DNA of 64,000 nucleotides from Variovorax sp. WDL1 (GTDB lineage Bacteria; Pseudomonadota; Gammaproteobacteria; Burkholderiales; Burkholderiaceae_C): positions 110,645-174,644 of the forward strand of contig NZ_LMTS01000026.1 of the NCBI RefSeq assembly GCF_001541225.1. Reading direction: 5' to 3'. Within the stretch, counting starts at the first letter, position 1. The number at the start of each line of letters is the position of its first letter. Of this stretch, positions 4,902-13,708 are shown one piece after another. The position numbers and the translations under genes were made by a program. Under the pieces are notes generated by a model that was given only the letters and a program-made list of their open reading frames with translations, did no database searches and was not told the origin of the DNA.

Positions 4902-5648
4902 ATGACCCCAACTTTAACTATCGAAGACCTCCTGGAGGCGCTCGGCAATGACTGTGCGAAGCATGGGAGTGCGCTAATACCGGCCACCGCCAGCGACCTC
5001 GATGCGACTCCGAGGTTGCGGTTCGCGTGGGAGGATTTCCTGAAGGCAGTCGCCGCTGAAAAACCAAGCGCCGTCTTTTGGCAAAAACAATGCTTTGTGC
5101 CAGAGGACTACGTCCAGGAATGCATGGAGGAAGAGGGTTGGAAGCCCGTATTTGAGATGAGCCGCAGAGGTCGCTGGCCAACGCCGGCCGAGACTAGTGC
5201 GCACGTCGCCGCAGACCTGGCCTTGGTCGAGCGCTTCAGCGGCCAGCCCTATTTCATCTTGGCGATGTACACAAAGGATGGCGCGTTCCGTACCTCCAGC
5301 GTATTACTGACCTGGGCCAATGAAATCGCGGAGAAGATTTCCGATTTCATCGAACAACGTTTCGATGACGAGGCCGTATTGCAGGAGCAGTTGCACACGC
5401 TGGAGGCAGAGCGAATTGAGCGGCTTAGCTCGGAAATTGCCGCAAGCGCGGAGTTCCAGCAAATCCGCGGGCTACCGAAGCGGCTCCTGTGGGTCCAGGC
5501 GACCTATGGCGGCAAAATTCCCCCTCACAGCCGTGGCAGGATTGAGCGCATCTCCCAAAACGTGGACTACGTGGACGCAAATCTGGCGTATGTAGTAAAG
5601 AAGGCCCACGACAAGACCTGGGTTGCAAGCAACGTCGGAAAGGCATGA
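4902..5648 (+). CDS. Hypothetical 248-residue soluble protein
   Basis: Not recognised. It is a cytoplasmic-looking protein rich in charged residues. Residues 150-200 form a probable coiled coil (DFIEQRFDDEAVLQEQLHTL and onward). The last 60 residues are basic (LPKRLLWVQATYGGKIPP). A GGAGGAGG lies 14 bases before the ATG, a slightly long spacing. The stop is 17 bases from the end of the convergent Mom-like gene. Confidence 0.6.
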   Translation: MTPTLTIEDLLEALGNDCAKHGSALIPATASDLDATPRLRFAWEDFLKAVAAEKPSAVFWQKQCFVPEDYVQECMEEEGWKPVFEMSRRGRWPTPAETSAHVAADLALVERFSGQPYFILAMYTKDGAFRTSSVLLTWANEIAEKISDFIEQRFDDEAVLQEQLHTLEAERIERLSSEIAASAEFQQIRGLPKRLLWVQATYGGKIPPHSRGRIERISQNVDYVDANLAYVVKKAHDKTWVASNVGKA

Positions 5649-5664
5649 GCGGAGAGCCTTTCGC

Positions 5665-6570
5665 TCAGGTGCTCGGTATCAGCGCAACCCGCCGGTGCGA
5701 ATCGGACTGCTTAGGGTACGGCTGCGGAGGCTGAAAGCCCGACATCACAATCGCCTTCTCGCCGGTGCGTCCCAGCGGCCAGGCGTAGACATGATTGCCC
5801 GGATGCTTCACAGGCCGCAGGAGGCCGCTTCGAAGAACTCCGTCGAGCCACTGGGCTGGCTCCTGGCCGAACGGCCGTGCCGGTGCACCAAGGTGAACCA
5901 GCGCGCGCTCGGCCGCCTCGTGTCCCGACTCCAGAAGACGAATCTTTGAGAGCGAGCGGGGACTGACCACGCGCCCAGACGCCGTGACGTGATGCGTTCG
6001 AGGGGTCCCTCGCCCCAGGTACCGCCCGTTGAATGCCTGGTAGCAAATGCCGACATGCCCAGGCATCGTCAGTCCCCCGTCCTCGTCTCGCCTGGGCACT
6101 GGGTCGGAGTACGAGACGACGGCCTTCATCGCCGGCTTCACCTTCTTGAGCAGGTCGAACGCGCGACCCAGGAAATAGGTCTCGCTGCAGTAGGGAGCGG
6201 CGTCAAGCAGCACCAGGCGGCCTAGCTCCAAGCCTTCGCTCGGGGGCACAGAGCAGTACTTCGGAATCACCCGTTGGTTCATGGGCACGGAGAACACCGC
6301 GACGCCCATCAGCTCCGCTTTGGGACCAAACAGGCCCACGCGTACGACGGACGCTACGAACGACCGGCTGTAGTGGTGGGCCTCCACGAACTTTCTTGCG
6401 ACGCCCTCCGTGATGAGGTCCACAGCGAAGTCCCCCTTCCTAAATCCTTCGTCCCTGTCGACACGGAAGGACGACTTGCCGTCCCGCCACCGTTGCGTAG
6501 GAATTGGTTTTCCAGAGGAAGCGGGGGCGCACAGGCCTCTGGCGACTTGTAGTTTAGATTGCATGTGCAT
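5665..6570 (-). CDS. Mom-like acyltransferase (GNAT fold), putative DNA-base modification
   Basis: The 301-residue protein has EAHHYSRSF at 64-72, a conserved LELGRLVLLD near 115-124, YSDP near 154-157 and GICYQAFNGRYLGR near 172-185. This order matches proteins related to phage Mu Mom, which converts adenine in DNA to a carbamoylmethyl form and so blocks restriction. Related GNAT proteins also occur in huge phages and plasmids. No dam-like or com gene lies beside it. The role as a DNA modifier is inferred from family resemblance only. The precise start (6570 or 6564) is uncertain. Confidence 0.6.
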   Translation of the reverse strand: MHMQSKLQVARGLCAPASSGKPIPTQRWRDGKSSFRVDRDEGFRKGDFAVDLITEGVARKFVEAHHYSRSFVASVVRVGLFGPKAELMGVAVFSVPMNQRVIPKYCSVPPSEGLELGRLVLLDAAPYCSETYFLGRAFDLLKKVKPAMKAVVSYSDPVPRRDEDGGLTMPGHVGICYQAFNGRYLGRGTPRTHHVTASGRVVSPRSLSKIRLLESGHEAAERALVHLGAPARPFGQEPAQWLDGVLRSGLLRPVKHPGNHVYAWPLGRTGEKAIVMSGFQPPQPYPKQSDSHRRVALIPST

Positions 6571-6622
6571 TTAGTTTATACGGTTTCCGCGGTCCGTAAA
6601 TCAACCTTGCTCCCACGTTCTT

Positions 6623-6628
6623 CTATAG
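6623..6628 (+). promoter_or_regulatory. CTATAG -10 element of the five-gene operon
   Basis: CTATAG lies 62 bases before the first start codon, with no good -35. It belongs to the recurrent CTATAC/CTATAG group seen across the window. The hexamer is palindromic, so it could also face the divergent gene. Confidence 0.4.
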
Positions 6629-6689
6629 GTGCCATAAACCGTGTCGCTTTTCTGTCTTGACCGCAGCGCTGCTGCCAAGGACGACCGCG

Positions 6690-7862
6690 ATGGCATCTAC
6701 CTACTTCTCGACTGCGCAACTGCGCCCCTACCTTGACCGCACCAGCATCGGAGCGACGGCCCTCGTGGTCGCCATCCTGAGCGGCGCGCCGCATGACCGC
6801 AGTGGCGCACCGACCCGCTGGCCCGTGCTCGAACGCCTGACAGTTGGGCAGCTGCTCTGCGACTTCATGGTCCGAGTCGAAGCGCTCGGCGGAGAAATCG
6901 TTACGCCCGAAACGGTAGCCGGCCGGGCCTGCATGGACGCCATCGCACCCCTGCTTTGGCACGAAGGCCTGGTCGATGACAACTGGGAGCCCCCCGGCCG
7001 GCAGCTGGACGCGTGCATCGCGCTTGCGACGCCGCTGCTGGCACCCGTCCTGGGCACGAGCGTCACGGAGCTTCTGCAGTACCGGCCGGGCGCGACCGGA
7101 TTCATCGGCGGGTACGCGAGCATGGTGTCCGACGAGCTCGACGTGACCCTTCAGAACTACTTCGGGGGAAGGGTCGACAAGAACGGGGTCGCCCGCCTCG
7201 CCGACAACCTGCCTCTGGCGGCGGGGGAAGGCCTCGTGCTGTCGATGTGGCGTGCCGGCCTGCACCGCTATGCCGAGGACGGCGAGAAGCTCTACGACAT
7301 CGCTGCCTTGGTCTCTGATGCCAAGGGCCGGCCCGTGGCCACCTTCGACGCTCGAATCGTCTACCTTCGACGCGGCCAATCTGCCGCCAAGGCGCTGTGG
7401 ACGCTCGACGCCTATGACGAAGCTGGCCTCAAGCTTGGGACCAGCCTCCATGTGCTCGAGCAGCATCAGCGGCTCCCTGATAGCTTTTATGACGGCAAGG
7501 GCCTCCTGTTCCTGGAAGCATTCGAGGTCCGGCACGACCTGCGCGGTCAGGGGCTCGGGGCCGAGCTGCTGAAGGAGTTGCTCCCGCTGGCTCTGGGTGG
7601 TTTGCGCCGTCGTGTCAGCAAAATTGCCATGGCGCCCTTCCCGCTCCAGTACGACTATCCGGTCTCCGAGAAGCTGCCGCCGCAGCTGGTGATGGACGCC
7701 GTGGACGCCGTCGAGTCGCTGCGAGCGCACATCGACCGCGTCCGGCCGCAGGACCTGCACCCGTGGACCGCGGGCAGCGACATCATCTTCCTGGGGCAGG
7801 ACCCCCGCGCGACCGGGACGCACGACGAGCAGCTCTACCTGCTTTCAGAGCATGCGAGCTGA
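6690..7862 (+). CDS. GNAT-like protein, first gene of the operon
   Basis: About 390 residues from the ATG at 6690; an earlier ATG at 6657 is possible but less likely. The N-terminal part is not recognised. The C-terminal third contains FLEAFEVRHDLRGQGLGAEL, the acetyl-CoA-binding signature (R/QxxGxG/A) of GCN5-related N-acetyltransferases, so acyl transfer is the best guess. No substrate can be named. The stop overlaps the next gene by 11 bases, which points to translational coupling. Confidence 0.65.
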   Translation: MASTYFSTAQLRPYLDRTSIGATALVVAILSGAPHDRSGAPTRWPVLERLTVGQLLCDFMVRVEALGGEIVTPETVAGRACMDAIAPLLWHEGLVDDNWEPPGRQLDACIALATPLLAPVLGTSVTELLQYRPGATGFIGGYASMVSDELDVTLQNYFGGRVDKNGVARLADNLPLAAGEGLVLSMWRAGLHRYAEDGEKLYDIAALVSDAKGRPVATFDARIVYLRRGQSAAKALWTLDAYDEAGLKLGTSLHVLEQHQRLPDSFYDGKGLLFLEAFEVRHDLRGQGLGAELLKELLPLALGGLRRRVSKIAMAPFPLQYDYPVSEKLPPQLVMDAVDAVESLRAHIDRVRPQDLHPWTAGSDIIFLGQDPRATGTHDEQLYLLSEHAS

Positions 7863-8559
7863 GACAGCACCGGCCCGCATCGGCATCTTGGGCGGCGCGG
7901 GGCCCTTCGCGAGTGCGGTGTTCCAGGTTCGGCTGGTCCAGGCCTGGGCGCGTCAGATGTCCGGCGCGTGCCTCCAAGACGAGCACTACCCCGCAATCAT
8001 CCACCTCAGTGAGGCCTTGCAAGGACTCGGCGCCGACGGCGTGGAATGCCGCCGTAGGGCCGCCGCTTCGCTTGCGCGCGGTGTGTCGCTGTTGAAAGAA
8101 GCGGGTGCCGCCTTCGTCGCTGCGCCTTGCAACAGCCTGGGCGAGGTCCTGACCAACTGCACGGGCACCCTCGGTCTTGAGGTGTTCACCCCATGGAACT
8201 CGGCACCCGCCATGCGACAGCCCGCGTCCACGGCGGTGCTGTGTTCCAAGAGCATGAGGGCGTATCTCTCCGCGCGCTACCCAGAATTGATTTTCCCGAG
8301 CGACGCCGCCCAAGCCGCAGTTCAACTGCTCATCGAGCAGGGGATGGCGGGTCAGGCTCCCTCAGCTTGCCTACTGCAGGCGCTCATCTCCGAGCAGCTG
8401 CGCCGCGGCGTCGCCGAGGTGCGCATTGCCTGCACAGAACTGTCGTGCGCGCAGCTCGAACCCGATGAACGGGTGCTCGACACCATGAATTGCCTGGTGC
8501 GCGCCACGGCTGACCGTGCGCAGGCGCTATTTCGGGCCTCCTTCCAAGCCTCAACATGA
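7852..8559 (+). CDS. Aspartate/glutamate racemase superfamily protein
   Basis: The 235-residue protein has GILGGAGPFAS at 11-21, APCNS near 90-94 and ACTELS near 189-194. The two cysteines in these motifs are the acid/base pair of cofactor-independent Asp/Glu racemases, the RacX/YgeA group and related isomerases. All key residues are present, so it should be active on a small acidic or amino-acid-like substrate. It overlaps its neighbours by 11 and 4 bases. Placement beside NAD synthase suggests it supplies or edits a substrate of the same pathway (inference). Confidence 0.75.
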   Translation: MRAETAPARIGILGGAGPFASAVFQVRLVQAWARQMSGACLQDEHYPAIIHLSEALQGLGADGVECRRRAAASLARGVSLLKEAGAAFVAAPCNSLGEVLTNCTGTLGLEVFTPWNSAPAMRQPASTAVLCSKSMRAYLSARYPELIFPSDAAQAAVQLLIEQGMAGQAPSACLLQALISEQLRRGVAEVRIACTELSCAQLEPDERVLDTMNCLVRATADRAQALFRASFQAST

Positions 8560-9542
8560 ATCACTATCCCCCTCCTGCCAAGCACGCCCTTCCGAGCGGC
8601 CTCACCGAGCTGCTTGCCCAGCTTCGTCTGGAGGATGCGTTTTCCGCACCTGACTACGTTTGGCGTAAGGGCAATGCGCTGAACGCCTACCTTCGCGCAT
8701 CGGGGCTCCGGGCCGCCGTGGTGGCCGTGAGCGGGGGCGTGGACTCCGCCTTGGTGCTGGCGCTGGTCAAGGCGGCCAGCCAACAGCCCGGCTCGCCGAT
8801 TCAGCGCATCGTTCCCGTGCTCCTGCCGGTCTTCACCGATGGCGCTGCCACCAACCAGGACCTTGCAACGTCACGCGGCGTGGAGCTCTGCGGCGCGCTT
8901 GAACTGCTGCCTGTCGTTATCGACCTGTCGAAGGCGCACCTGGCGACGAAGACGCTCGTCGACAACGCGTTGTCGACGTTAGGCGAAGGCTGGGCCTCGG
9001 GCCAGCTGGTGGCTTATCAGCGAACTCCGGCGCTTTACTACGTCACCAGCCTTCTGACCCAGGCCGGCACGCCCGGCATGTTGATTGGCACGACGAATCG
9101 CGACGAGGGTGCGTACCTGGGCTACTTCGGCAAAGCCTCGGACGGCCTCGTGGACGCACAGCTCATCTCGGACCTGTACAAGTCCCAGGTCTATGAGGTT
9201 GCCCGGCACCTGGGGGTGCCGTCCTCCATCCTCGAGGCGACGCCGACCGGAGACATGTACGACGGCCGCACGGACGAAGAAGTCTTTGGCGCCAGCTATG
9301 ACGCTGTGGAGCTCTTCCTTCGCGAGAAGGCCTGTACCGATGTCGCCCGGCGAATTGCGGCAGTTGGTATGGCAGATGGCCGGAGCGACCGATTTGCGAG
9401 CCAGCGCGCGGCGTTGGAGGACCTTCACCGCTACAACCACCATAAGTATCTGGGTAAGTCGCCGGCGGTGCACTTCGACCTTTGGGATTGCCGAATCGAG
9501 GGTGGGTGGGACTACCACGTGGCCAGGGAAGCCAGGCAATGA
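8556..9542 (+). CDS. nadE: NAD synthase, ammonia-dependent type
   Basis: The 328-residue protein has the ATP-pyrophosphatase loop SGGVDSAL at 59-66, GTTNRDEGAYLG near 178-189, and the TPTGDMYDGRTDEE segment typical of NadE, which binds the adenylate and the deamido-NAD. There is no N-terminal glutaminase domain, so ammonia is the expected nitrogen source. NadE converts nicotinic acid adenine dinucleotide to NAD. In this operon it could instead amidate an NAD-like or other acyl-adenylate. It starts in an ATGA overlap with the racemase-like gene. Confidence 0.85.
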   Translation: MNHYPPPAKHALPSGLTELLAQLRLEDAFSAPDYVWRKGNALNAYLRASGLRAAVVAVSGGVDSALVLALVKAASQQPGSPIQRIVPVLLPVFTDGAATNQDLATSRGVELCGALELLPVVIDLSKAHLATKTLVDNALSTLGEGWASGQLVAYQRTPALYYVTSLLTQAGTPGMLIGTTNRDEGAYLGYFGKASDGLVDAQLISDLYKSQVYEVARHLGVPSSILEATPTGDMYDGRTDEEVFGASYDAVELFLREKACTDVARRIAAVGMADGRSDRFASQRAALEDLHRYNHHKYLGKSPAVHFDLWDCRIEGGWDYHVAREARQ

Positions 9543-10294
9543 AGACCGAGGCAAGCGCCCCCATTGCCTCCTTGTTCACGATGAGCGCCCTGCCGTCCGC
9601 GCGCGGGCCCGGCGCTCGCGCACGAAGGCTCCCCGTGCCGGGCGAAGCTTGGCATATCCGGGGCCTGATTCAACCCGAGCTTGTCGAGGCCATGCGCCGA
9701 GAGGTCCTGTCGGCGCCGAGCGTGCCAGTCGGGCCTGACGGCATCCTCAGCAACTTCAAGCCTGGAACCCACCCAGCCTCCTGGCGTAGCAGCAGCTTCA
9801 GCGCGGAGTTGGCGAGCCATCTCTGGTCCTGCCTTCCCTCCTCCCTGCTCGAGCCACGCGCGTTCAGTGAGCACGACCGAGCAGACCACGACGGCCATTC
9901 GCTCTGGAACCCGGTTGGCGTCAACGCCTTGCATCGATTCATTCGTTACGAGCCCGGCAGTGGCCATCTGGTGGGTCACTACGACGCTCCGTACATCGAG
10001 AGCGAAGCTCGCAGGACGCTTTTCAGCCTGGTCGTGTACCTGAGCGACAACGAAAGCGGTGAGACGAGGTTTCTGCGTGACGCGCAGGACCCGCTCCCCT
10101 TCGCAGCCCGAGATTTCAGTGACTGGTCCCGAAATGCCAATGCCGACGAGGTGCTGCTGGCAGTGACGCCCCTAAAGGGCGATGCCCTGTTGTTCGAGCA
10201 CCGAATGCTTCATGACGGAGCTCCGGTCCTCGGGCAGGAGAAGCTGATTTTGAGAACAGACCTGGTCTTCGAGCGAACGGGGGCGCCCACTTGA
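9539..10294 (+). CDS. 2-oxoglutarate/Fe(II) oxygenase, prolyl-hydroxylase type
   Basis: The 251-residue protein has GHYDAPY near 146-152 (the HxD iron ligands), a distal histidine in HRMLHDG (221 or 225), and ILRTDLVF supplying the arginine that binds 2-oxoglutarate. The spacing is normal for the P4H-like branch of the superfamily. It starts in an ATGA overlap with nadE, and its own stop overlaps the next start as TTGA. Hydroxylation of a peptide, amino acid or small-molecule intermediate is expected; the substrate is unknown. Confidence 0.75.
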   Translation: MKTEASAPIASLFTMSALPSARGPGARARRLPVPGEAWHIRGLIQPELVEAMRREVLSAPSVPVGPDGILSNFKPGTHPASWRSSSFSAELASHLWSCLPSSLLEPRAFSEHDRADHDGHSLWNPVGVNALHRFIRYEPGSGHLVGHYDAPYIESEARRTLFSLVVYLSDNESGETRFLRDAQDPLPFAARDFSDWSRNANADEVLLAVTPLKGDALLFEHRMLHDGAPVLGQEKLILRTDLVFERTGAPT

Positions 10295-11997
10295 CGGAAC
10301 GCCACCCCCGCCCTGACCGCTTTGTCGCCAAGGCGCTATTGGACCCCTACTATGCGCCGCTCGCCGCCGCCGGCGCGAGCCACGAGACGCTCCGAGCCGC
10401 CGGTTTCATTGACGACCTCCTGGACGGCAGCGTTCGGGCGCACCCTTGCTGGTCGCCGGCGATGCTCACGACGCCCTTGATGAAGGTGCGACGAGCACTC
10501 GCCCAGTCGCCGGAAGACGCCCGAAAACTCGTTCTCCTGTCGACGGGCAGCTACTCCCCGATGCACGAAGGGCACATCGCCCTCATGGAGCGAGCCCGGA
10601 CGCACGCGCAGGAGCTCGGATACACGGTCGTAGGCGGCTATATGTCCCCTTCCCATGACGCCTACGTCAGCGTGAAGAACGGCGGTACGGCGGCGCTGCA
10701 TGCAGAGCAACGAATCGCGCTCGCCGAGGAGGCCGTCCGCCACAGCGACTGGCTCTCCATCTGCCCGTGGGAGGCACGGCATGCGCCGGAAGCCCTCAAC
10801 TTCACGGATGTGCTCGACCGCCTAGCGGCCTACCTGGCCAGGCACGTTGACGCAATTGAGTTGGGATACGTCTTTGGCAGCGACAACCTGGGGTTCCTGG
10901 CGGCTTTCGCAGAACGCGGCCTGGCGTTTTGCGGTGTTCGAGGCGAAATGACCACTGAAGCGCTGCGCGAAACCCATGCGCTCCTTGGCGGCCGTGAGCA
11001 TCGCCTTCACATGATGCCCGCTACGCGCGCGACGCGGGCCGAGACCGCATCGTCTACCAAGGTGCGTAGCGGCAACCTCTCCCTTATCCCCGAGGCAGCG
11101 CGTGCGCGGTACCGGGCGCTCGTGCAGCCGCCGAGCCAGGCCCCGACGATGACACCGGCATACCTCGTTCGTCGCGACCTGGCCCATGCGACGTCCAACT
11201 GGGGGGTCGACGCTGCGGCCCAGGCCGAGTTCGAGGAGTCGCTCATGGACGTTCTCGCTTCGAGCCTCGGCGCCGCCGGCGTGGTTCACGGCATCCCGCT
11301 GGCGGCGCAAATCGAGTTGGCAACTGCAGCGCGCGAACCCGAGACGTCGATGCTGAGCCTGGACGCGTGCGTTCTGGGCGATGCGCAGCTGCGTGTGAGC
11401 CGGCTCTTTGACGTCGGAGGTGGCCAAGTGTTCTCGTCACAGCGCGTACCGAGACCCGGGGCCGCGGCCCTCGCGCTGCAACTGGCCAGCCTCGACCGGT
11501 CCCGGAAGTGGCGTGTGCTGGATGATGACAAGGCCACGGGGGACACGGAGCATTCCGTGCACGCCCTCCTGACGGCAGAAGGCGTCCAGGTGGCCGGCTT
11601 CACCTACCTGAATGAGGCCTACCTGCGGGGAACCGAGCTGGCGGAGCGCGAAGTGCTCGACATCGTGGATGCGAGGGACTTTCTGCTGGGAGCGAGGGAC
11701 GGCGGGCTCGTCATCGAATTGCCAACAGGGGAGACAGCCCGCGCGCCCTACATGCTTCCTTTCGTCAACCTGGTCTTTAGGGCCAAGATTCCCGCTGAGG
11801 CATGCAACCGCCTCTCGCGCCAACTGTGGGAGCTGAACGTCGCGTGGCTGGAGGCCTACGCGCCGCGGCTCACCGTTTCAGACGCGGACCCCGCTTCAGG
11901 CGCCCTGCTGACATACCTGGGCTTTGCCTCGACGACAACGCTGGGTGACTGCTGCAACGCGTTGTCCGCGTGGTCGGGCGACCTCAGCCTTCGCTAG
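10291..11997 (+). CDS. NMN adenylyltransferase-like domain fused to PRTase-like domain
   Basis: The 568-residue protein starts with TTG inside TTGA. Residues about 80-270 are a nucleotidyltransferase: TGSYSPMHEGH (85-95) holds the HxGH motif, and SSTKVRSG near 253-260 is the ISTxxR-type motif of NadD/NMNAT enzymes. The second half contains VLDDDKATGDT near 409-419, which fits the PRPP-binding signature of type I phosphoribosyltransferases (DDxxATGxT). I know of no standard family with this order. Together the halves could make a nucleotide from PRPP and adenylylate it. A terminator hairpin follows. Confidence 0.65.
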   Translation: MTERHPRPDRFVAKALLDPYYAPLAAAGASHETLRAAGFIDDLLDGSVRAHPCWSPAMLTTPLMKVRRALAQSPEDARKLVLLSTGSYSPMHEGHIALMERARTHAQELGYTVVGGYMSPSHDAYVSVKNGGTAALHAEQRIALAEEAVRHSDWLSICPWEARHAPEALNFTDVLDRLAAYLARHVDAIELGYVFGSDNLGFLAAFAERGLAFCGVRGEMTTEALRETHALLGGREHRLHMMPATRATRAETASSTKVRSGNLSLIPEAARARYRALVQPPSQAPTMTPAYLVRRDLAHATSNWGVDAAAQAEFEESLMDVLASSLGAAGVVHGIPLAAQIELATAAREPETSMLSLDACVLGDAQLRVSRLFDVGGGQVFSSQRVPRPGAAALALQLASLDRSRKWRVLDDDKATGDTEHSVHALLTAEGVQVAGFTYLNEAYLRGTELAEREVLDIVDARDFLLGARDGGLVIELPTGETARAPYMLPFVNLVFRAKIPAEACNRLSRQLWELNVAWLEAYAPRLTVSDADPASGALLTYLGFASTTTLGDCCNALSAWSGDLSLR

Positions 11998-12024
11998 TGC
12001 CGGCCGGGAGCTCAAGAAAAGGAA

Positions 12025-12051
12025 AGGCCTCCTCCAAATTGGAAGAGGCCT
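12025..12051. terminator. Bidirectional terminator between convergent genes
   Basis: AGGCCTC (12025-12031) pairs with GAGGCCT (12045-12051); it sits between the operon end and the gene at 12076. Confidence 0.5.
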
Positions 12052-12075
12052 GAAGGAGGTCAGCGGAGCCGAGCG

Positions 12076-12501
12076 TTACGCCGGTTCGAGCTCGCGTTCG
12101 CGGAACGCAACGCCGGAAATGGCCATGTCGAGGCCCTTCCTGAGCTTCTCGCAGAGGTCGTCGTAGCCGTGCGCCACGTAGGTGGCCTTGCGGAAATGGT
12201 GGGGGTTCACGTTGCCGCCAAAGATAGCCGGGCTCAGCGTGTCATCCGATTCGAGGTCCATGTGCCAGGAGAGCACGTAGACGTCCGGTTGGCTGGAGTA
12301 GCCGTTGAAGTAGACGGTCACCTGCAGGCCGCGAGGCGTGTCGATTTCAACGTGAATTCCACGCGGGCCGGGGTACTCGCCGCCTTCGCGCCGGGTGGAG
12401 GTTGCGCCGCAGTCGCGAACGAGTTTTTCAACGCCTTTTGCCATCAGCTCGCGGTCGCCTTTGCGGAGCACGGTGAGCCCGAGCGTCTTGGTCTTCTTCA
12501 T
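12076..12501 (-). CDS. Hypothetical 141-residue protein
   Basis: Not recognised. A soluble protein with alternating beta-strand patterns (GIHVEIDTPRGLQVTVYFNG) and a conserved-looking PHHFRKATYVAHGYDDL segment. It could be a nucleic-acid- or ligand-binding alpha/beta protein, but nothing decides this. ACAGGACACTCAC before the ATG gives a weak ribosome site. It is monocistronic and convergent with the preceding operon. Confidence 0.6.
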   Translation of the reverse strand: MKKTKTLGLTVLRKGDRELMAKGVEKLVRDCGATSTRREGGEYPGPRGIHVEIDTPRGLQVTVYFNGYSSQPDVYVLSWHMDLESDDTLSPAIFGGNVNPHHFRKATYVAHGYDDLCEKLRKGLDMAISGVAFRERELEPA

Positions 12502-12794
12502 GTGAGTGTCCTGTGTGAAGTGGTCCTCCCTCGTGTAGGAACGGACCTGGCACCAAGGGGCGAGGCACGCGCCCCGCTAAAATGAAAGCCGCGCTCGACG
12601 GGCGGCAGGTTCATCCTGTTGCGACGCTGGCAGCAGGCGACGACTCGCCAAAATATGGGCTTGAGACCGCGACGACCCACGCCGCGTGCGCGAGCTCTTG
12701 GCTGCCAATAGCGTTCCGCGCCCTAGCGCTCTGACTTGGTCGCGTCGCCTATATGCTGAACCAACGAAACGTCGAGTTTAAAAGCCTCAGCTGC

Positions 12795-12823
12795 TTGCTG
12801 CGCTTGTGGCGATGTGCTATACT
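12795..12823 (+). promoter_or_regulatory. Sigma-70 promoter of ssrA
   Basis: TTGCTG (12795-12800), a 17-base spacer, and TATACT (12818-12823). This is one of the few well-formed housekeeping promoters in the window. Transcription should start near 12830. Confidence 0.75.
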
Positions 12824-12829
12824 GACGAC

Positions 12830-13125
12830 ATCGTTGTATATCCTCTGAATCGGAAACGTGTCTAAATGGGGTTCGATTCCCCACACTTCCACCAAGAAAC
12901 GCTTTAGATGAGGCGTTTGTTGATGGGGGTGACCTGGATTCGAAGACGGGCGGAAGTGCAGGCGGCAACGCGGGTTGGGACTACCCGGCAAGGCTTAGGT
13001 CTTGTAGAACAGAACGACATGACAATTGCCAACGAAAGCAATTTCCGCCTCGCTGCTTAAGCAGGCCGGGGTCTAAAGGCACCCTGTAACCTAAGCCTTT
13101 GTGAGCCGCAGCAATGCGGCTTGCC
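12830..13125 (+). ncRNA. ssrA: Permuted two-piece tmRNA
   Basis: The T-arm and 3' acceptor end (TTCGATTCC ... CCACCA, ending 12894) come before the 5' acceptor strand GGGGGTG (12925-12931) and D-loop ACCTGGATTCGA. The two strands GGGGGTG and CACTTCC form a 7-bp tRNA-Ala-like stem with a G3-U pair. The tag frame at 13029-13061 reads ANESNFRLAA followed by TAA, so stalled proteins would receive AANESNFRLAA. The 30-base spacer between the pieces forms a small hairpin and must be cut out. tmRNA with SmpB rescues ribosomes stalled on broken mRNA. Permuted genes are known in alphaproteobacteria, cyanobacteria and some betaproteobacteria. The 3' boundary is approximate. Confidence 0.88.
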
Positions 13126-13207
13126 GGCGCCTCGATGTACTCACGTGCATCGGGGCGTTTGACCCTCTGGCGCGCTCACGCGCCGCCCTCCTCTCAAGGA
13201 TTCCATC

Positions 13208-13708
13208 GTGACTGCACCAAACCCCGCACAAAGCGGACCTCGACAGCGCGAAACTCGGACGGTCGTGGACAACCGCCAGGCGCGACACCTCTACTTCATC
13301 GAAGACACCTTCGAAGCCGGCCTCATGCTGCGCGGCTGGGAGGTCAAGGCCATCCTGGCCGGCCAGGCCACGTTCAATGGCGGCTCCGCCTTCATCCGCC
13401 TCAAGGACGGAGAGGCCTTCGTCGAGTCGCTCACCATCACCCCCCTGGCACAAGCACGCAAGGGTCTGCTGGAAGAGCTGGAACCCACCCGCCCTCGGCA
13501 GCTGTTGCTCAACAAGGCTGAGCTGCGCAAGCTCGAGCGCCGCGTGGACGAGCGCGGCTACACCGTTGTGCCGCTCGCCCTGACGTACACACGCAAGCTG
13601 AAGCTGAACATCGGCTTGGCCAAGGGCAAGAAGCTGCACGACAAGCGCGATACGGTTCGTCAACGTGACCAACAGCGTGACCTCGCACGCGAGCTGAAGG
13701 CGGCATAG
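13208..13708 (+). CDS. smpB: SsrA-binding protein SmpB
   Basis: The 166-residue protein contains NRQARHLYFIEDTFEAGLML, GWEVKAI, a central PTRPRQLLLNKAELRKL, GYTVVPLALTYTRKLKLNIG and the C-terminal GLAKGKKLHDKRDT, all hallmarks of SmpB. The GLAKGKKxHDKR region enters the ribosomal decoding centre. The GTG start follows AAGGATTCC. It lies just downstream of ssrA in the same direction, giving a complete trans-translation module that can work on its own partner RNA. Confidence 0.93.
   Translation: MTAPNPAQSGPRQRETRTVVDNRQARHLYFIEDTFEAGLMLRGWEVKAILAGQATFNGGSAFIRLKDGEAFVESLTITPLAQARKGLLEELEPTRPRQLLLNKAELRKLERRVDERGYTVVPLALTYTRKLKLNIGLAKGKKLHDKRDTVRQRDQQRDLARELKAA

Follow-up and report, generated by a model that had tools for sequence, protein, structure and literature searches.

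What is made by a NAD synthase, a 2-oxoglutarate (2OG)-Fe(II) oxygenase and a nicotinamide mononucleotide adenylyltransferase (NMNAT) joined to a phosphoribosyltransferase (PRTase) when they are encoded side by side? The question is raised by an operon of five plus-strand open reading frames (ORFs) in a stretch of 64,000 nucleotides from contig NZ_LMTS01000026.1 of Variovorax sp. WDL1 (hereafter the window). An earlier reading of these letters (the sequence-only reading) had described five genes overlapping by 11, 4, 4 and 4 bases, which the ORF coordinates bear out, and had treated all five as one unit. The conserved unit is NadE, the 2OG-Fe(II) oxygenase and the NMNAT-PRTase protein (hereafter the module). 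Pfam clearly identifies an NAD synthase, a 2OG-Fe(II) oxygenase and, in the last protein, a nucleotidyltransferase domain (E values in Table 1).

Linkage, fusion and distribution of the module

Module partners were called with local hidden Markov models for the three proteins. When genome contigs were scanned with the NadE alignment, 33 loci were obtained (designated L and a number); in 30 of them the NMNAT-PRTase protein is found beside NadE. The remaining three are L031, where the contig stops past the oxygenase, L046, which is a 4 kb contig, and L049, where nadE opens the contig. The oxygenase is present in 24 of the 33 loci, absent from seven (L018, L019, L020, L023, L025, L029 and L041, L020 being approximately a copy of L019) and unclear in two (L046 and L049). 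All four domains are carried on a single chain in nine loci (1108-1483 residues by open frame), and NadE and the oxygenase share a chain in 12 further loci, so that fused forms make up 21 of the 33.

Beyond these loci, the module is met again on contigs of giant phages and on plasmids. The same NadE alignment gave seven loci in viral contigs, six with the fusion protein and five with the oxygenase within the available DNA. Scanning the viral contigs with the fusion-protein alignment gave eight loci, of which six lie on contigs 169-466 kb long; two contigs were common to both scans. The best 77 further viral NadE loci among the matches listed, presumably mostly ordinary NadE, served as a control. 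No module partner was found in the available DNA of 75 of them, which argues that the linkage is particular to this NadE subfamily. The two exceptions are L081, a full module, and L086, a shortened one (6932-9255), in which the NMNAT protein that accompanies the NAD synthase and 2OG genes is shortened and gives no PRTase match.

Ten of 72,556 plasmid records were matched by the fusion protein in a tblastn search. In Streptomyces, Paenibacillus and Leptospira plasmids the nadE, 2OG and fusion genes are consecutive, with one small intervening gene in Paenibacillus. In a Mycolicibacterium record and two Gordonia records, one of which was examined, the NMNAT half alone matches and a phosphotransferase gene adjoins; in the actinobacterial plasmids this pair, the NMNAT-half homologue first, lies at L005:8752-10535 and L006:8785-10529, where the annotated genes shown include no NAD synthase. 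The fusion protein matched nothing in the phage collection, in which short divergent forms surfaced later via NadE; a close search of the viral contigs with the NadE of phage X1 returned nothing. The module is rare: it was found in one of 369 genomes of the window's class (the window's own), in two of 41 close relatives (the window's genome and one with a 99% identical copy) and in two of 285 genomes of one small-genome phylum.

Predicted activities of the module enzymes

The fusion protein was modelled with AlphaFold2 from 39 aligned sequences (pLDDT 92.1, pTM 0.92), and its N-terminal half models confidently as a eukaryotic-type NMNAT. Residues 57-281 gave Z scores of about 19-23 against eukaryotic-type NMNATs in VIA-align (22.6 for 9iw1, 22.3 for 9rpk and 21.2 for human 1nup), and profile matches were obtained to the Arabidopsis (2e-33) and human (1.5e-22) enzymes. 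P90, H92 and H95 are conserved in 39 of 39 sequences. A Trp between GxDN and the next strand is present in the 9rpk row and in none of the 39 module rows, a difference that we take to lie near the base. Motif exceptions include L036 and L042, which lack the NMNAT Arg, L029, which has Lys instead and also lacks the Gly of the phosphoribosyl pyrophosphate (PRPP) loop, and L015, without the first Gly. By eye, the N terminus of the fusion protein gave the impression of a J-domain remnant (L019:7925-8200, also L010 and L027); Pfam returned no family for the L019 stretch.

A PRTase fold of the C-terminal half had been set beforehand as a check on the sequence-only reading. Modelled separately (pLDDT 95.2), this half is confidently predicted to adopt a divergent type I PRTase fold. 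The best VIA scores were Z 8.7 (7f06; 4.1 Å over 119 residues) and 8.4 (the APRT 6fsp), and among the 50 rows shown every title that names an enzyme is a PRTase, PyrR or PRPP synthetase. For the fusion protein no PRTase match exceeded a Pfam or NCBIfam cut-off; the PRPP motif is nonetheless present. In this loop, DDDxxTGxT, D412 and D413 are invariant, position 411 is D or E and position 416 T or S in 39 of 39 sequences, G417 is kept in 38 and T419 in 37. The third D occupies the hydrophobic position of the usual motif. The NAPRT domain (PF04095) is absent from the five operon proteins in Pfam and NCBIfam scans to E 1.

The window's NadE protein consists of the synthase domain alone in a Pfam scan, and its PDB profile match is 3fiu (3.7e-32). 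The SGGxDS loop together with Q150, E184, K193 and D196 is conserved in all 42 module NadE sequences. The module enzymes read GQ at Q150, whereas the three PDB rows shown read GN. A new amino-acid site was suspected in the C-terminal stretch NxHKYxxxSPAVHxD, but the idea was dropped, since by eye the stretch aligns with the canonical NadE C terminus. In the oxygenase, the HxD...H metal triad and the 2OG-binding Arg (H147, D149, H225 and R239) are kept in 34 of 34 sequences. Judged by their motifs, the module enzymes look catalytically intact.

The oxidative enzyme appears to vary. A search for the oxygenase in twelve genomes or records gave none in seven bacterial ones and a match in four of five phage records, the record without one being that of L009. 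On the NadE tree, oxygenase presence and absence require at least four changes; the bacterial rows without it nest within the oxygenase-bearing group, and L009 stands near the base at an unresolved fork. A RaSEA-like radical SAM gene adjoins L009, L019, L025 and L041; the L019 gene matches TIGR01210 with E 1.2e-57 and 195.5 bits, under the cut-off of 212.15. This gene was sought in 31 genomes or records, comprising seven of the eight loci without 2OG (L020 excluded) and 24 carriers, a part of all carriers. It was found in six of the seven compared with two of the 24 (Fisher p 2.5e-4), the two being L030 and L032, both with the gene on other contigs. In L018, the seventh, a different radical SAM gene overlaps nadE. 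In the 285-genome sample the module and the radical SAM gene (E 1e-20) occur in the same two genomes, one of which was the centre of the draw. The pattern is suggestive, short of proof, of an oxygen-dependent enzyme being swapped for an oxygen-free one at the same step. A second module-type 2OG oxygenase (L028:10516-11355, minus strand) lies beside a locus with a fused one.

NAD links and the proposed product

NrtR-type regulators adjoin L004 and L019 (NF050029 1.9e-57 and 7e-36, both under cut-off; NrtR_WHD over the Pfam cut-off) and a homologue adjoins L041. The regulators beside these three loci and the order of the activities support a link of the module to NAD. The sequence-only reading had inferred a new way of making or repairing NAD, or an NAD-like or adenylated conjugate, and is supported in part.

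Many carriers have other genes for NAD synthesis. Away from the module, phage records L010-L012 carry a second NAD synthase, a PncB-family gene (1.3e-129 in L063, 2.6e-132 in L068; a PF04095 match in G044) and genes resembling NadM and nicotinamidase; the last two names rest on NCBIfam matches under cut-off in L063 and L066 and on homologues in L068. Groups of NAPRT, NAD synthase, NadM-like, Nudix and nicotinamidase-like genes are seen in giant phages at L063, L066 and L068. Another NAD synthase is present in ten of 14 bacterial genomes tested. The other four genomes, those of L017, L023, L025 and L041, have the module's NadE as their sole strong one and its NMNAT as their sole TIGR00482 match, and no PF04095 gene was found in them. 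That a module NadE is the only NAD synthase in its genome was considered as proof of NAD making; the argument is weakened because, among 285 genomes sampled from one such phylum, just 28 have any NAD synthase at E 1e-15, and their completeness is not given.

Our preferred reading, held tentatively and with slightly less than even confidence, is that the core forms a dedicated Preiss-Handler-type line with an oxidative fourth step, and that it yields, alongside the ordinary pool of NAD, a NAD-type dinucleotide whose base is modified and which is linked to the NAD-centred conflict of phages and plasmids. A pyridine-type base with a carboxylate would first receive the ribose 5-phosphate of PRPP through the C-terminal type I PRTase domain; the NMNAT domain would adenylate the resulting mononucleotide, and NadE would then use NH3 and ATP to amidate the acid dinucleotide. 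Oxidation of the base, an intermediate or the dinucleotide would fall to the 2OG oxygenase or, in most tested lineages that have none, to a RaSEA-like radical SAM enzyme. A modified-base dinucleotide is favoured because three phage records with ordinary NAD-salvage genes retain the module. A non-standard base is likewise favoured by the further NAD synthase in ten of the 14 bacterial genomes and in these three phage records, and by the departure of the PRTase family, the NMNAT loop and the NadE base loop from the canonical forms. It is possible, if somewhat unlikely, that the module is a further mobile pathway to a previously unknown NAD analogue, whose non-nicotinamide base would be incorporated by the dedicated PRTase, NMNAT and NadE and oxidised by an enzyme that either needs oxygen or does without it; giant phages, plasmids and bacteria would thereby gain a redox cofactor, a signal or a decoy resisting cleavage or sensing by NAD-degrading defences.

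Perhaps the module serves NAD-based phage-host conflict. Further genes related to NAD or ADP-ribose are seen near some loci: a macro domain gene at the Paenibacillus plasmid locus and, by eye, a NADAR-like gene near L009 and an ADP-ribosylglycohydrolase-like gene near L013. In Leptospira plasmid p1 the module stands beside a TIR gene, and in Xanthomonas phage X1 a divergent short module lies at most five genes from annotated NadM-Nudix and NadV genes. Both settings, like the order of activities, would suit redundant ordinary nicotinate-to-NAD salvage that restores NAD after NADase defence, with the oxygenase merely supplying nicotinate from a precursor; the X1 authors suggest that the phage may offset NAD depletion with its NAD genes (PMC13384950). 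We consider such salvage very improbable, since PncB, NadE and NadM-like genes are already present elsewhere in three phage records and the dedicated NadE, NMNAT and PRTase would be left unexplained.

The main rival to a modified-base product is NAD itself, with its amide nitrogen taken from an amino acid: NadE would join this amino acid to the carboxylate of nicotinate, after which its carbon skeleton would be removed by the oxygenase or RaSEA-like enzyme. Archaeosine synthesis offers a precedent in the lysine chemistry of ArcS and RaSEA; according to PMC11298593, lysine, and none of NH4+, Asn and Gln, serves as substrate for the ArcS of T. kodakarensis and of two other archaea, and RaSEA turns the preQ0-Lys into archaeosine. 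The RaSEA-like match itself fits this route, as do the amino-acid enzymes near nadE, namely the racemase (seven distinct loci including the window), a LysA-like gene in L018 (E 2.4e-12, under cut-off) and an ATP-grasp amino-acid ligase-like gene in L023 with relatives in L025 and L040; in four reduced genomes, moreover, the module NadE is the sole strong NAD synthase. We nevertheless hold the route to be unlikely. NadE has the catalytic residues known from NH3-dependent enzymes, no racemase was found in most loci, the RaSEA-like score falls under the family cut-off, and the three phage records with other NAD-synthesis genes retain the module. The M. jannaschii ArcS, also according to PMC11298593, takes NH4+, Asn or Gln.

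Several observations weigh against the modified-base reading. The four of 14 genomes with the module as sole strong NadE weakly favour NAD itself as the product, and the catalytic residues of NadE appear canonical from the alignment. The short forms of phage X1 and Variovorax phage V45v66 carry N, not Q, in the base loop (by eye). The similarity of the predicted PRTase fold to known structures is modest (Z at most 8.7), and Foldseek gave nothing below E 0.001 for this half, with a best E of 0.029. The NMNAT motif is lost in Paenibacillus (L003). Linkage is looser in phage records L010-L012, with about 8-11 kb between the fusion gene and those for NadE and 2OG. In L013 the distance from the fusion gene to the 2OG gene is about 60 kb, and NAD synthase was not found. 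The exchange of 2OG and radical SAM enzymes has just three independent pairs on the tree, a number at which significance is impossible. Two of the six RaSEA-like genes are not adjacent to the module (about 7 kb away in L023, on a separate contig in L029), and these same two each contain one in-frame stop as read.

If NAD is the product, the module would lead from free base to NAD by a route that a single polypeptide can hold; its oxidative step would need explaining, and it would give a type I PRTase a role so far known only for type II enzymes. An NAD analogue, if that is the product, would be a new cofactor or a decoy in the arms race over NAD that bacteria and phages wage. In both cases expression and enzyme assays can begin immediately, since four-domain fusions exist, as do short forms from phages of known host.

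The Variovorax operon and neighbouring genes

The features of the operon are collected in Table 1. The start of the operon at position 6623 in the sequence-only reading is unsupported: the annotation of the matching Variovorax plasmid starts gene 1 at the ATG at 6690, and the mechanical ORF begins at TTG 6657. For genes 1 and 2 the matches to the families named earlier all stay below the family cut-offs. The GNAT profile scores 17.3 bits on gene 1 (Pfam cut-off 20.7); gene 2 matches Asp_Glu_race weakly in Pfam (4e-4, under cut-off) and a CuyB-type NCBIfam model with 58.8 bits (cut-off 190).

Table 1. Features of the operon and its 3' flank in the window
Feature	Position	Strand	Basis
Gene 1: GNAT-like protein, 390 residues	6690-7862	+	Acetyltransf_1 E 0.0061, under cut-off
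Gene 2: Asp/Glu racemase superfamily protein, CuyB-like	7852-8559	+	NF052483 7.3e-16, under cut-off
Gene 3: NadE-type NAD synthase, module's own subfamily	8556-9542	+	PF02540 1.6e-27
Gene 4: 2OG-Fe(II) oxygenase	9539-10294	+	PF13640 (2OG-FeII_Oxy_3) 1.6e-7
Gene 5: NMNAT-PRTase fusion protein, 568 residues, TTG start	10291-11997	+	AlphaFold2 model; CTP_transf_like 9.5e-9, N half
Predicted eukaryotic-type NMNAT domain, about residues 57-281 of gene 5	10459-11133	+	VIA-align structural match
Predicted divergent type I PRTase-like domain, about residues 286-568 of gene 5; PRPP loop about 408-419	11146-11994	+	Model and VIA
Terminator-like hairpin, 12 pairs, between operon and convergent gene 12076-12501	12025-12051		Pattern match only; found on the minus strand

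The five-gene unit was upheld for its three-gene core, which recurs and is often fused. The racemase is an optional partner: its homologue is directly upstream of nadE in six other distinct genome loci (near-copy L020 excluded). The GNAT-like gene is probably outside the core; tblastn of the plasmid collection, the one collection searched with it, gave four records, all Variovorax. Four Variovorax plasmids of about 0.8 Mb carry near-identical operons (fusion protein at least 99% identical). The window genes are found on an 816 kb plasmid of Variovorax sp. WDL1, with the fusion protein 99.8% identical, and the window's genome has a second NAD synthase.

The sole PADLOC match was a generic 2OG model on gene 4, labelled CRISPR-Cas-associated. 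A promoter scan found none, and a search for repeats in 5400-12700 gave nothing notable. A Mom-like DNA modification protein (5665-6570, minus strand; PF25680 2.3e-24) is encoded divergently from the operon. A tmRNA gene (12802-13151) and smpB (13208-13708), both on the plus strand, lie downstream, on a plasmid-type replicon of about 0.8 Mb.

In Legionella shakespearei (L040:4805-12500) the consecutive genes encode an ATP-grasp protein, a nicotianamine-synthase-like protein, the four-domain fusion, a CN-hydrolase, a methyltransferase and PhyH. The nicotianamine-synthase-like label was given by eye, and relatives in L025 and L037 have no family match. This row would suit a small nucleotide natural product or an adenylated conjugate, tailored by the racemase, ATP-grasp, methyltransferase and GNAT proteins. 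We regard such a product as quite improbable: the tailoring-type genes differ among loci and were not found in most, and the NrtR-type regulators indicate NAD homeostasis. Clusters of the natural-product type are seldom known from giant phages. A further conserved protein is encoded near the module in a plasmid (L003:10268-10891), phage records (L010:10668-11330) and a bacterium (L037:914-1666); its L010 copy has no Pfam or NCBIfam match.

Comparison with known systems

The sequence-only reading knew of no described pathway with this set of genes, and we found no description of the module in the open PubMed Central (PMC) literature; subscription papers lay outside this search and some searches were narrow. 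In a review of viral NAD systems, the section on phage NAD synthesis treats NadV, NadM and NadR, and the portion of the main text consulted nowhere mentions nadE, 2OG, oxygenase, racemase or radical SAM (PMC9503650). A paper on the NAD synthetase family describes NH3- and Gln-using forms, and the word 'oxygenase' does not occur in the part of it that we drew on (PMC3376133). The X1 paper names an oxoglutarate oxygenase separately from its auxiliary genes pncB, nadM, nadD, nadE and NAMPT, and the corresponding part of it does not describe the module (PMC13384950).

The module resembles the NARP1 (Adps, Namat) and NARP2 (NadV, NadM) systems in that NAD genes are carried by phages and plasmids, and the X1 module lies near NadM and NadV; it differs in having NadE and the oxygenase and in occurring in bacterial genome assemblies too. 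General Pfam and NCBIfam scans gave no match to a NadV-type or Nampt-family enzyme in the window's five proteins. Like the ArcS-RaSEA pair, some module loci combine a RaSEA-like radical SAM gene with a nearby one that encodes a ligase-type enzyme; here the partner is NadE instead of ArcS, there is no known tRNA link and the score is just below the family cut-off.

The NadE has the SGGxDS loop and conserved catalytic residues of NH3-dependent NadE, and in the window protein the synthase domain likewise stands alone, but it forms a subfamily of its own with GQ for GN and is fused to the oxygenase in 21 of the 33 genome loci. The NMNAT half resembles the eukaryotic enzymes (human NMNAT1-3, Arabidopsis) in predicted fold and in the GxxxPxHxxH and SS...R motifs, with the Trp of DPWEA in 38 of 39 sequences; it differs in the loop after GxDN, which lacks the Trp of the Arabidopsis row, and in the added C-terminal PRTase domain. 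That domain would belong with type I PRTases by its PRPP loop (two acidic residues and TGxT) and its modelled fold, and gene 4 with the 2OG-Fe(II) oxygenases by the metal triad and 2OG-binding Arg.

One of the closest known pathways is the Preiss-Handler route (PncB, NadD and NadE), which has the same three activities in the same chemical order of PRTase, NMNAT and NadE. Sequence and models indicate a NaMN/NMN adenylyltransferase and a NAD synthase in the module as well. Its PRTase, however, is predicted to be type I-like and not of the NAPRT family, and its NMNAT to be of the eukaryotic type; the module also adds an oxygenase or radical SAM enzyme, and its domains are often fused.

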